64,000 bases of DNA from Niveispirillum cyanobacteriorum (GTDB lineage: Bacteria > Pseudomonadota > Alphaproteobacteria > Azospirillales > Azospirillaceae): NCBI RefSeq assembly GCF_002868735.1, contig NZ_CP025611.1, forward strand, positions 428,501 to 492,500. Reading direction: 5' to 3'. The position numbers were made by a program, and so were the translations under genes. Below, piece after piece: positions 41,566 to 44,991 of the stretch. The notes under the pieces were generated by a model. It worked only from the letters and a program-made list of their open reading frames with translations, searched no databases and was not told where the DNA came from. The number at the start of each line of letters is the position of its first letter. Within the stretch, counting starts at the first letter, position 1.

Positions 41566-41745
41566 CTACGCCCTGGCTTCCAAGACGACCTGTACCGACC
41601 GCCGCCGACAGCGCCGTCGAAGGACGGCGTATCCCGCATCGGTATTCTCACCCTGGAACAACTCCCCGGTCGGCGTATCCAGACCGTCCAGCCGATCCTT
41701 GCTGACATCCAAAGCGATGATAGAGTCGGACTGCATCATCTTCAT
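41566..41745 (-). pseudogene. IS110-family transposase remnant
   Basis: On the minus strand a short frame starts MMQSDSIIALDVSKDRLDGLD and continues to QVVLEARA then stop. IIALDVSKDRLD is the N-terminal DEDD-domain motif of IS110-type transposases, and VVLEA corresponds to the next conserved block. Only about 57 of the usual 300-400 residues remain, so the gene is a truncated relic. Confidence 0.72.
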
Positions 41746-41907
41746 ACTCCCTGGCTTGCACGTTCGGGGCTGCAACCCCATGCAACTGTTCGGGGCAATG
41801 AAGGTGCCGACTGGAGAGCCTTGCTTGGCTGCGGAGTGCTTATCTACCGGTCCGCGGAGCGGTCTTCCATTCCGTGATAGTGCAATTCTATCAGATTGCA
41901 GAAACAC

Positions 41908-41983
41908 AAGCTGCGGATGCAGTGCCAGCGATTGAGGAAAACGGAAAGCTAGAGCATTTTCCGGTCAACAGAAACACGCTCCA
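41908..41983. repeat. Right flank copy of the palindromic repeat
   Basis: This stretch repeats 40768-40843 in direct orientation, including AAGCTGCG, ATGCAG, TGAGGA and CTAGAGC and the TTTTCCGGTCAAC core. Together the two copies bracket about 1.06 kb of accessory sequence. Confidence 0.65.
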
Positions 41984-41992
41984 GCCTGATCT

Positions 41993-42247
41993 TCAGGCCG
42001 AAATATCGATGATATAGCCGCGATACTGCACCGGCTGTACCGGGGCCAGGGTAACGGGACGCACGGGTTCCAGTGTCACGGGACGCACCGGTGCCAGATT
42101 GCGGTCGGGCAATTGCGGGGCGGGTGCAGGCCGGGGTGGCGGCGGGGCCGGTGCGGGGTCGGCAGAACGGCGACCGGGCGCCCCCTCCGGCGGGGGTGGG
42201 GCCGGGGCGGTATAGGTACCAGTGCTGTTGATGCCGTTGATCGCCAT
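41993..42247 (-). CDS. Proline-rich hypothetical protein
   Basis: A protein of 84 residues (MAINGINSTGTYTAPAPPPPEG...). The middle is low-complexity Pro/Ala. Then there is a short tandem motif (LAPVRPVTLEPVRPVTLAPVQPV) of three VxPV units, and the C-terminus is YRGYIIDISA. Codon bias follows the local GC pattern. No family recognised. The repeat content could also arise in a non-coding frame, so confidence is limited. Confidence 0.4.
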   Translation of the reverse strand: MAINGINSTGTYTAPAPPPPEGAPGRRSADPAPAPPPPRPAPAPQLPDRNLAPVRPVTLEPVRPVTLAPVQPVQYRGYIIDISA

Positions 42248-42394
42248 GACCGGCTGCCCCGATGTTTACGGCTGCATCATAATCCAGGCTGTACCCAGCG
42301 TGAAATGCACAATTGGATAGGCTGAGGGGGATAGGCTTATGCCGCCCGCCCTGTGCCGGAATTTCGGGCGTGGGGCTGATCAAGAGATGGGCAG

Positions 42395-42552
42395 AAAAAA
42401 ACGGCCGGAAAACCAAAAGGTTTCCGGCCGAGTTGAACAGGGAGGCTTCACGTCTGGGAGACGCTGGGTCAAGGACCCAACCCCGACCGGGTAAATCGGG
42501 GCGAAACGTCGCTGCTGCGTCGCAGCAGCGATGGCCCAAGATTTAAGCATCC
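42395..42552 (-). ncRNA. Candidate small RNA with extended -10 promoter and terminator
   Basis: On the minus strand an extended -10 (TGGTATAAT, TATAAT at 42559-42564) is followed by about 158 bases without a credible ORF. They hold four consecutive inverted repeats: 42509-42531, 42481-42501, 42465-42479 and 42451-42463. A single-stranded linker (42431-42450) containing CCUCCC comes next, and then a textbook intrinsic terminator (CGGCCGG...CCGGCCG, 42402-42430, and seven T). The CCUCCC and a CCC hairpin loop resemble anti-Shine-Dalgarno motifs of known trans-acting RNAs. An alternative is the 3' UTR of the LysR gene just upstream. No known RNA family was recognised. Confidence 0.65.
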
Positions 42553-42587
42553 AGGCCGATTATACCAGGGGTGAAGCCAAGCCTGAG

Positions 42588-43499
42588 TTATGCGTTTGAT
42601 GCATGGCTCGATGGGAAGGTCTCAGCAACCTTCTTCACGAGGAAGTCACGGAACACGGCGATGCGCTTGGAATGGCGCAGTTCTTCGGCATAGACGAAAT
42701 AGGCGTCGATGCGCGGCCCGCTCACTTCCGGCAGGATGCGGACGATATCGGGCTGATTGTCGACGACATAGTCGGGCAGGGACGCAATGCCCAGGCCGGA
42801 CTGAACGGCGCGGAACATGGCGTACAGGCTGTTGACGCGCAGCGCGGTATGGCGTTCGCCACCCGGCGGGTCGCCGACATGCAGGGCCCAGTTGATGTTG
42901 GTGACCGGTGCCCGCGCCTCGTTCGGATAGGCGATCAGGTCATGCTGGTCCAGTTCCGCCACCGATTGCGGCATGCCGCGCTTTTCGATGTAGGACTTGT
43001 GGGCGTACAGGTGCACGCGCACCGTCATCAGATGACGCTGGATCAGGTCCGGCTGGCGCGGGGCCGACAGGCGGATGGCGATATCCGCCTCGCGCATCGA
43101 CAGGTCCAGCTCATTATCGTCCAGCAGCAGCGTCAGCTGCACATCCGGATAGAGCGACAGGAAATCCTTCACCCGCGGCGTCAGCCAGGTAGAGCCGAGC
43201 GCGATGGTGGTGGTGACCTTCAACGGGCCCTTCGGATGCTCCTTCGATTCGGAGAGCATGGCCTCCGTCATCGAGAGCTTGGCAAACACCTCCCGCGCGG
43301 TGCGGTAGAGCAGTTCACCCTGTTCCGTCAGAATCAGCCCGCGTGCATGGCGATGGAACAGCGGCACATGGAGGCTTTCCTCCAGCGCGCTGATCTGCCG
43401 GCTGACCGCCGACTGGCTGAGGTTCAGGGTTTCCCCCGCATGCGTGAAGCTGCCCGCCTCCGCCACAGCGTGAAAGACGCGAAGCTTGTCCCAGTCCAT
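42588..43499 (-). CDS. LysR family transcriptional regulator
   Basis: A protein of 303 residues. The DNA-binding helix-turn-helix is at about residues 2-60 (MDWDKLRVFHAVAEAGSFTHAGETLNLSQSAVSRQISALEESLHVPLFHR). The effector domain starts near residue 92. It lies downstream of trxB on the same strand, with 310 bases between. Effector and targets are unknown. Confidence 0.9.
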   Translation of the reverse strand: MDWDKLRVFHAVAEAGSFTHAGETLNLSQSAVSRQISALEESLHVPLFHRHARGLILTEQGELLYRTAREVFAKLSMTEAMLSESKEHPKGPLKVTTTIALGSTWLTPRVKDFLSLYPDVQLTLLLDDNELDLSMREADIAIRLSAPRQPDLIQRHLMTVRVHLYAHKSYIEKRGMPQSVAELDQHDLIAYPNEARAPVTNINWALHVGDPPGGERHTALRVNSLYAMFRAVQSGLGIASLPDYVVDNQPDIVRILPEVSGPRIDAYFVYAEELRHSKRIAVFRDFLVKKVAETFPSSHASNA

Positions 43500-43731
43500 G
43501 GACCCGTCCCTAGATAGTGGCGCAACTGCCGAACGCCGGATGACGTTCCAGGCGCCCCGTCTGTTGGTCGGACACGGGAATGCGCCCGACGCATGGATGA
43601 TATACAGCCCCTGCCGCCAATGCTAGGGCTTGTCACCAAAATGTCGATTTACCGCTAGCTATCGTATTGTTCTTGCAACAGTTCGCCGAGGGACGGAGAC
43701 GGAATACCCCTGCTAAAGTGGTAAAATGAAG

Positions 43732-43809: not shown

Positions 43810-44763
43810 TCAGTGGCCGGCCAGGAACTTTTCGACTTCCAGGGCAGCCATGCAGCCCATGCCCGCCGCCGTCACGGCCTGGCGGAACACTTTGTCCTTT
43901 ACGTCGCCGGCGGCATAGACGCCGGGGATGTCGGTGCGGGTGCTGTCCGGATCGGTGACGATATAGCCTTCCTCATCCATGCGGACCTTGCCCTTGAACA
44001 CGCTGGTGGCCGGGTCATGGCCAATGGCCACGAACACGCCGTCAAGCGACCGTTCCGTGACGGCGTCGGTCTTCACATTGCGCAGGCGCACGCCGGTGAC
44101 CAGCTTCGGGTCGGTGAAGCTGGAGCCACCCTTGCCCAGGATCTCTTCGACCACACTGTCCCAGACCACTTCGATCTTGGGATGGGCGGCCACGCGTTCC
44201 TGCAGGATACGTTCACCGCGGAAGCTGTCGCGGCGGTGGATCAGGGTGACCTTGGAGGCGTGATGAGTCAGGTAAAGCGCTTCTTCCAGGGCGGTGTTGC
44301 CGCCGCCGATGACGGCCACTTCCTTACCCCGGAAGAAGAACCCGTCACAGGTGGCGCAGGCGGAGACGCCGCCGCCCTGGTAATGTTCTTCGCCCGGAAT
44401 GCCCAGCCAGCGGGCCTGTGCGCCCGTCGCGATGATCACGGCGTCGGCCACGAATTCATCGCCACTGTCGGCCTTGCAGACGAACGGACGCTTGGTGAAA
44501 TCGACATCGGTGATGATGTCGTAGAACATTTTGGTGCCGTAACGTTCGGCCTGCGCCCGCATCTGCTCCATCAGGAATGGGCCTTCAACCGGGTCGGCGA
44601 AACCGGGATAGTTTTCCACATCCTTGGTGATGGTCAGCTGCCCACCCGGCGTCATGCCCTGGACCAGCACCGGCTCCAGGCTGGCGCGGGCGGCATAGAT
44701 GGCGGCGGTGTAGCCGGCCGGGCCGGCGCCGATGATCAGGACCTTGGAACGATGGGTCGCCAT
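43810..44763 (-). CDS. trxB: Thioredoxin-disulfide reductase
   Basis: A protein of 317 residues starting MATHRSKVLIIGAGPAGYTAAIYAARA at 44763. The FAD-binding GxGxxG, the redox-active pair CATC in GVSACATCDGFFFRGK, the NADPH motif VIGGGNTALEEALYL and the C-terminal FAD motif GVYAAGDVKDKVFRQAVTAAGMGCMAALEVE are all present. It reduces thioredoxin in the cytoplasm. It is divergent from the DsbD-family gene, which passes thioredoxin electrons to the periplasm; the pairing is functionally coherent. Confidence 0.95.
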   Translation of the reverse strand: MATHRSKVLIIGAGPAGYTAAIYAARASLEPVLVQGMTPGGQLTITKDVENYPGFADPVEGPFLMEQMRAQAERYGTKMFYDIITDVDFTKRPFVCKADSGDEFVADAVIIATGAQARWLGIPGEEHYQGGGVSACATCDGFFFRGKEVAVIGGGNTALEEALYLTHHASKVTLIHRRDSFRGERILQERVAAHPKIEVVWDSVVEEILGKGGSSFTDPKLVTGVRLRNVKTDAVTERSLDGVFVAIGHDPATSVFKGKVRMDEEGYIVTDPDSTRTDIPGVYAAGDVKDKVFRQAVTAAGMGCMAALEVEKFLAGH

Positions 44764-44991
44764 GATGCTTCCTTGGGAACGGCGTTGGATTGTCTGCCGC
44801 CGAAGATGGGGGCGGTGGGGCGCATCCGGCAAGATGCACGGGCGCGGGGCGGGGTTGCGACCCTACAGGGGCGATGGCGGACGGGCAATGGCCCCGTCAC
44901 GCTGACACAACTTGAAACAAAGCCGCACTGGCCCCGGGGGCAAGGTCACACTACATAGAGAGGCGCCTTTGCTTTCCCATGGGTTTCGGTG

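Follow-up and report, generated by a model that had tools for sequence, protein, structure and literature searches.

A conserved structured RNA behind the trxB-LysR gene pair of Niveispirillum cyanobacteriorum, a probable counterpart of the AbcR small RNAs

By computation, we found in a 64-kb stretch of Niveispirillum cyanobacteriorum DNA (64,000 nucleotides, hereafter the window) a structured and conserved RNA on the minus strand that is linked to the gene of a LysR regulator and preceded by a conserved box (Table 1). We consider it probable that the region 42395-42553 encodes an independent, LysR-activated small RNA that is similar to AbcR and blocks ribosome-binding sites, mainly those of uptake genes. 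In the mechanism that we propose, the LsrB/VtlR-type LysR protein encoded just upstream would bind the ATGC-N7-GCAT box and activate the RNA promoter, and the RNA would end at its own terminator and act in trans. The CUCCCA of hairpin 4 and the CCUCCCUGUUCAA linker would pair with ribosome-binding sites that contain GGGAGG, which would block translation, and the targets would be mainly uptake genes, the best candidate here being the mRNA of a TonB-dependent receptor. The RNA would fill the genomic slot of the Rhizobiaceae AbcR RNAs and work as they do; we infer that it is transcribed, is activated by LysR, uses Hfq and blocks the translation of these targets.

Table 1. Features of the RNA locus and of the genes upstream of it (positions are those of the window)
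Feature	Position	Strand	Remarks
trxB, thioredoxin reductase, conserved neighbour	43810-44832	minus	TIGR01292 410.6 bits, cut-off 343
LysR regulator, LsrB/VtlR type, proposed activator	42588-43499	minus	HTH_1 and LysR_substrate domains
ATGC-N7-GCAT inverted repeat (LysR-type T-N11-A box)	42590-42604		~45 bases upstream of the inferred RNA start
Extended -10 TGGTATAAT	42559-42567	minus	sole copy in the 64-kb window; 0.08 expected by chance
Small RNA gene	42395-42553	minus	length ~158 nt, with the start placed by means of the -10; contains four hairpins, the CCUCCCUGUU linker and a terminator
Hairpin 1	42509-42531	minus	compensatory changes (helices 1-3, 30-copy alignment)
Hairpin 2	42480-42502	minus	two-sided changes in 8/9 pairs (helix 4, 30-copy alignment)
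Hairpin 3	42465-42479	minus	two-sided changes in 3/5 pairs (helix 5, 30-copy alignment)
Hairpin 4, CGUCUCCCAGACG, M1-like CUCCCA	42450-42464	minus	two-sided changes in the broad set (helices 4-5)
Linker GAAGCCUCCCUGUUCAACU, proposed seed	42431-42449	minus	identical in 30/30 aligned copies; CCTCCC at 42440-42445
Intrinsic terminator	42395-42430	minus	stem 42402-42430 and seven T 42395-42401; stem covaries in the broad set (helix 6)

The initial annotation of this locus described four back-to-back hairpins and a terminator with seven T within about 158 bases of the minus strand, and all of these elements are present, both as coordinates and in the predicted fold. The region 42395-42553 (minus strand) folds at -75.5 kcal/mol, as opposed to -51.1 ± 4.0 kcal/mol in shuffled sequences (z = -6.2), and none of the 200 shuffles folded as well. 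The terminator was missed by a simple terminator scan, probably because its stem is interrupted, and is visible in the fold and in relatives; the RNA has a U tail, and Hfq is a putative partner. The CCUCCC stretch had been described as single-stranded, which holds or fails with the ends assumed for the transcript. With a transcript start at 42554, the UCC is taken up by pairing with GGA at the 5' end of the same RNA and is only ~17% unpaired, whereas CUCCC is 90-100% unpaired once the ends shift slightly. Across 30 homologues, folding gave CUCCCUGUU a mean accessibility of ~0.6-0.75. In these folding models, the proposed seed may be partly hidden by the 5' end of the RNA itself.

A DNA search returned matches in 33 of 58 relatives (34 of 59 counting this genome) and in 16 of 37 genera. 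Loss from close relatives, which would speak against the initial annotation, was not seen: the RNA is present in 9 of the 10 other same-genus genomes, the tenth of which (G005) is split into 860 contigs. Matches extend to 18 of 24 other family members and 6 of 24 other class members, in the last group mostly as a short core. Rfam had no family at gathering score anywhere in the 64-kb window or in 20 related loci; Rfam is without a family for this RNA of many genera.

We then compared sequence change with structure in an alignment of 30 copies, the window's included and all picked by DNA similarity. A run of 32 consecutive nucleotides (GTCTCCCAGACGTGAAGCCTCCCTGTTCAACT) is identical in all 30, 96.2% of cells are paired, and two-sided compensation occurs in 20 of 31 base pairs; two-sided cells numbered 85, compared with 21.8 in shuffles, and none of 500 shuffles reached as high a count. 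The covariance check proposed with the initial annotation thus came out in its favour for the stems of the three 5' hairpins. Hairpin 4 (helix 6) is nearly invariant in close relatives and uninformative there. In a broad set of 52 sequences, within which CCUCCCUG is invariant by selection of the set, two-sided changes were found in 17 of 19 pairs (0 of 500 shuffles). Automatic RNAalifold on the divergent set A3 returned no pairs; the structure used for A3 was supplied from one sequence and the counts lean towards it, with slid controls giving much lower values. Among 97 distinct 37-mers, the six fixed pairs of hairpin 4 pair in 84% of cells, compared with 79.9% in shuffles (maximum 82.1%); slid versions of these fixed pairs reach similar two-sided counts, so that support by that count is weak. 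Covariation, the invariance of the CCUCCCUGUU linker and the distribution of the RNA support the initial proposal of an independent structured RNA carrying motifs directed at ribosome sites.

Covariance model R2, whose training set includes this genome's copy, scored 79.9 bits at 42395-42486 and matched 59 of 60 loci searched (15 from the training set, 57 chosen for having the core). Six of the 60 related loci carry tandem copies, with two or three RNAs behind the same LysR gene: L169 (2331-2947), L078 (3549-4131; a Sneathiella MAG), L110 (3536-4137), L048 and L053 (both Thalassospira) and L098 (a Magnetovibrio MAG). These tandem loci are natural systems for studies of sibling RNAs.

The gene order in the window is trxB-LysR-RNA. 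The initial annotation did not include the LsrB/VtlR type of the LysR gene, its link with trxB, the conserved LysR box, the spread of the RNA through the class or a comparison with the ar15 and alpha-r8 families. By tblastn, the window LysR is 50.7% identical to the S. meliloti LysR encoded beside trxB and to an R. leguminosarum protein annotated VtlR, and it is the best match of S. meliloti LsrB in this genome (330 bits, compared with 126 for the next; a reciprocal best match). Its closest named homologue, at 98% identity, is from a Niveispirillum MAG. LysR lies upstream of the RNA in 29 of the 30 aligned loci; in the remaining one, a contig end cuts the locus off. Among the best 80 LysR loci of named genomes, the core was within 900 bases downstream in 59, absent in 18 and the sequence too short in 3; carriers include Azospirillum, Thalassospira, Kiloniella, Nisaea, Reyranella, Sneathiella, Magnetovibrio, Elioraea and Belnapia. 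The core was not found behind the LysR gene of Azospirillum canadense (L037), and of the 18 named loci without it, two (L051 and L054) carry it farther downstream and one (L085) weakly. In a class-wide sample, LysR was found at E 1e-60 or better in 144 of 241 genomes. Locus counts cover 110 of these 144, this genome included, and related genomes make them non-independent: the core lies behind LysR in 69 of 110 loci and is absent in 41, three of which (L188, L195 and L203) are matched by R2 with E below 1e-3, and 92 of the 110 have trxB upstream in the same orientation. In a separate observation, plasmid p2 of Azospirillum brasilense Sp 7 carries an LsrB-type LysR gene (L290:2501-3415, 71% identity) two genes after an Lrp gene, where R2 found no RNA at E 0.001.

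The same neighbourhood is known from rhizobia. The S. meliloti and R. leguminosarum records read trxB-LysR-ar15-ar15-arsR, an arrangement that has also been described for A. tumefaciens (PMC7486931). The conservation of the trxB-vtlR order in the class (PMC7486931) and the synteny of the AbcR1 region (PMC8844928) are already published, and what appears to be new is the RNA that fills the trxB-LysR slot outside the carriers of AbcR. One section of a 2025 paper is headed 'LsrB is a LTTR unique to Rhizobiales' (PMC11975290). We found that 64 of the 110 LysR homologues, including that of the window, are without any cysteine, and that the three cysteine positions of S. meliloti LsrB are mostly valine in other homologues. 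Because so many homologues have no cysteine, sensing through thiols, as described for LsrB, cannot serve these regulators as their general input.

Between the LysR gene and the RNA lie the putative promoter elements. The extended -10 had been placed over the 3' end of the LysR gene; the motif itself is present, but it is located ~20 bases past the end of that gene (stop codon 42588-42590), and the last LysR codons are overlapped by the LysR-type inverted repeat and not by the -10. An exact TATAAT occurs in 5 of 10 same-genus copies (window included), and a promoter scan returned no -35/-10 pair at the locus; the missing pair and the presence of TATAAT in half of the genus copies would fit an activator-dependent promoter. 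T-N11-A is a general signature of LysR sites. Of the 30 aligned loci, 28 have the exact ATGC-N7-GCAT repeat, at 153-169 bases upstream of the core; the LysR stop varies more widely in position, from 139 to 378 bases upstream of the core. As the box is outside the codons wherever LysR ends 176-378 bases before the core, its conservation is not due to LysR codons. In the class sample, 46 of the 69 core-bearing loci have the exact box (23 of 69 are without it), compared with 8 of the 41 that lack the core; it turned up in none of 109 control stretches taken from the trxB side and in 14 of 2200 shuffles. Box and core are separated by 111 to 240 bases in this sample, except for one outlier at 476. 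Within the window, this inverted repeat occurs 4 times, with 3.15 expected by chance; its frequency is thus at chance level, and therefore only the conserved place of the box counts. Autoregulation of LysR through another inverted repeat (43580-43594, 81-95 bases upstream of the LysR start) was considered and rejected, that repeat being kept in only 3 of 109 class loci. In S. meliloti, the activity of the abcR1 promoter fell more than 22-fold after removal of the LsrB motif (PMC8844928), and passages in the two papers disagree on whether LsrB drives AbcR expression there: no according to PMC7486931, yes for AbcR1 according to PMC8844928.

The position of the RNA directly behind LysR also raises another reading, in which the lysR mRNA ends in this structure, as its 3' untranslated region and terminator, or releases it by cleavage, and the RNA has no promoter of its own. 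RNA and gene are on the same strand, the inferred start is only ~35 bases after the LysR stop, the promoter scan was negative for a -35/-10 pair, and SorX of Rhodobacter derives from a 3' UTR (by a title cited in PMC8307010). However, a LysR-type box separates gene and RNA and keeps within 153-169 bases of the core in the 30 aligned loci while the LysR stop varies, and AbcR1 is transcribed in that slot from a promoter of its own (PMC8844928); we regard a 3'-UTR origin as unlikely. It is highly improbable that the region encodes a small protein and not a regulatory RNA, since the 196-codon open frame that overlaps it (41949-42539, minus strand) is without a Pfam match and the loop and linker are identical while the stems change by compensation, a pattern that is RNA-like.

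Membership in a described RNA family, as a divergent form of alpha-r8 (mmgR/SisA) or of SorX/SorY, is a further alternative that turns on model scores and gene context. Among Rfam models, SorX comes closest at the locus (25.3 bits, E 5e-4) but stays below its gathering score of 46.6 bits. Conversely, R2 finds in this genome a single strong copy, followed weakly by two alpha-r8 copies at 24.9 and 22.3 bits, and it also finds, at 36.8 bits, a LysR-linked RNA of Paracoccus that itself passes SorX gathering. These similarities have to be set against the separate alpha-r8 RNAs with UUUCCUCCCUAAACUC in this genome, against the usual neighbour of alpha-r8, which in most species is the N-formylglutamate amidohydrolase gene (PMC12559287), and against the 20 further loci of the window RNA's family that are without an Rfam match at gathering. 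On balance, we consider that a place within either family is quite unlikely, and we favor an independent, LysR-activated small RNA.

For a small RNA of this type, the expected partners would be ribosome-binding sites. The initial annotation drew a parallel between the CCUCCC and CUCCC motifs and those of other alphaproteobacterial RNAs that oppose the Shine-Dalgarno sequence, and the parallel holds: the CUCCCA of hairpin 4 is identical to motif M1 of Brucella AbcR (PMC5461406). Within CGUCUCCCAGACG, full unpairing is predicted for CCC only; the neighbouring C-U and A form part of the stem or border on it. The CCUCCCUGUU of the linker has complementarity to Shine-Dalgarno regions. This genome contains 48 CAGGGAGG...ATG sites, compared with 7 for the reversed pattern, an excess that mostly reflects general Shine-Dalgarno richness. 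Thirty of the 48 were examined as loci, 19 of which have an open frame of 60 or more codons; a Pfam scan of 10 of those 19 frames identified 2 TonB receptors, 1 MFS transporter and 7 enzymes. The targets of AbcR itself are mRNAs of ABC transporters; the one solute-binding family counted here, PF13458, had 6 matches. The 13-base TTGAACAGGGAGG, antisense to CCUCCCUGUUCAA, occurs 18 times in 11 genus genomes, and 10 of these occurrences are the RNA gene itself. In 3 of the 11 genomes (this one and two others) it coincides with the ribosome site of one and the same TonB-dependent receptor, a site absent in this exact form from the other 8; five of the eight exact sites outside the RNA gene fall elsewhere, and the TonB-receptor site is the only exact one with an ATG and a long frame. 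From these sequence matches, uptake genes are plausible targets of the RNA.

A literature search, with most subscription journals outside its reach, found no description of the RNA, and none of five core fragments occurs in the main text of a paper on A. brasilense small RNAs. Farther downstream in the window, an open frame at 41566-41907 (minus strand) contains IIALDVSKDRLD, which we take to resemble the start of an IS110-type transposase; the frame had no Pfam match.

Among described RNAs, alpha-r8 (MmgR, the Rfam suhB family RF00519; SisA-D in Caulobacter) has the same design of a hairpin, a single-stranded CCUCCC stretch opposing the Shine-Dalgarno sequence and a terminator. Its core UUUCCUCCCU is absent from the window RNA, which reads GAAGCCUCCCUGUU, and its gene neighbour also differs. 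The suhB model gave 18 matches in this genome up to E 1; none of them is the locus, and two pass the cut-off. These two alpha-r8 copies read UUUCCUCCCU, and a third, sub-threshold copy reads AUUCCUCCCU. Identity with alpha-r8/mmgR, which was our first guess, was ruled out by the core sequence, the separate copies and the usual gene neighbour. At L222 and L224 (G000:C3:790913-791651), an alpha-r8 RNA lies ~600 bases from another match of this model, sub-threshold and on the opposite strand. With SorX (RF02784) and SorY (RF02651) of Rhodobacter, the window RNA has CUCCCUGUU and the terminator module in common; the SorX model comprises 73 positions and two stems, in contrast to ~158 nt and five stems here. 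Behind an LsrB-type LysR gene of Paracoccus versutus pBEN (L291:3539-3626), we observed an RNA that passes SorX gathering (49.3 bits, threshold 46.6), hinting that SorX-like RNAs may occupy the same LysR slot in Rhodobacterales.

The closest parallel in place and design is AbcR1/AbcR2 (alpha-r15, Rfam RF02345), described from Rhizobiaceae and Brucellaceae (PMC3712013, PMC8844928), which occupies the same slot behind trxB and an LsrB/VtlR-type LysR gene; we call the window RNA a counterpart of AbcR because of this shared place. Both have two C-rich segments opposing the Shine-Dalgarno sequence, one of them with CUCCCA in a hairpin, and a terminator of their own. The M1 motif CUCCCA, which AbcR carries in a hairpin loop, is found in the window RNA within hairpin 4, whereas the second AbcR motif, M2 GUUCCC between the hairpins (aSD2 UUCCCCUC), is not, the linker being GAAGCCUCCCUGUUCAACU; in short form, CCUCCCUGUU stands here where AbcR has GUUCCC(CUC). 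The window RNA, with ~158 nt and four hairpins plus a terminator, is also larger than AbcR, with 114-121 nt and three hairpins (PMC8844928, PMC3712013), it has one strong copy in this genome where AbcR has several per genome, and its ATGC-N7-GCAT box differs from the GCATG-N5-CATGC that we read by eye in two rhizobial promoters.

The Rfam ar15 model (gathering 40 bits) did not list the locus among its matches up to E 10, and as a positive control it gave 97-127 bits for six copies from three Rhizobiaceae records. Membership in ar15 was rejected on these scores and on the different second motif. A search with RF02345 of 142 class genomes, this one included, gave 0 matches, and the controls of that search were also silent, so that this absence says little apart from the positive control; the published AbcR motif pair had 7 scattered matches in 385 class genomes. 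In the opposite direction, R2 scored at best 14.2 bits on an ar15 copy (E 0.24, Shinella) and did not find the S. meliloti and R. leguminosarum copies. R2 thus falls short of ar15, which leaves shared place and design as the only grounds for kinship to AbcR.

Viewed across the class, the slot behind LysR is filled by ar15 in Rhizobiaceae, by a SorX-like RNA in one Paracoccus and by the window RNA in Rhodospirillales and others. The three forms share a module of a hairpin, a C-rich linker and a terminator. Descent of all three from one ancestral RNA is reasonable, if unproved. We tentatively suggest, as a possibility somewhat short of an even chance, that the LysR-sRNA pair is an ancestral alphaproteobacterial module, in which a single RNA opposing the Shine-Dalgarno sequence behind trxB-LysR evolved into three forms: AbcR in the Rhizobiaceae, the SorX-like RNA of Paracoccus and the unnamed one of Rhodospirillales and their kin. 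In such a history, the circuit that silences uptake would be older than the redox-cysteine sensing of rhizobial LsrB, because of the 64 of 110 homologues without cysteine. In rhizobia, AbcR RNAs control how nutrients are taken up and roots colonised, and in Brucella they control virulence. If the window RNA works like AbcR, then the LsrB/VtlR-sRNA circuit would be a general alphaproteobacterial regulator, and one that is testable in plant-associated Azospirillaceae.
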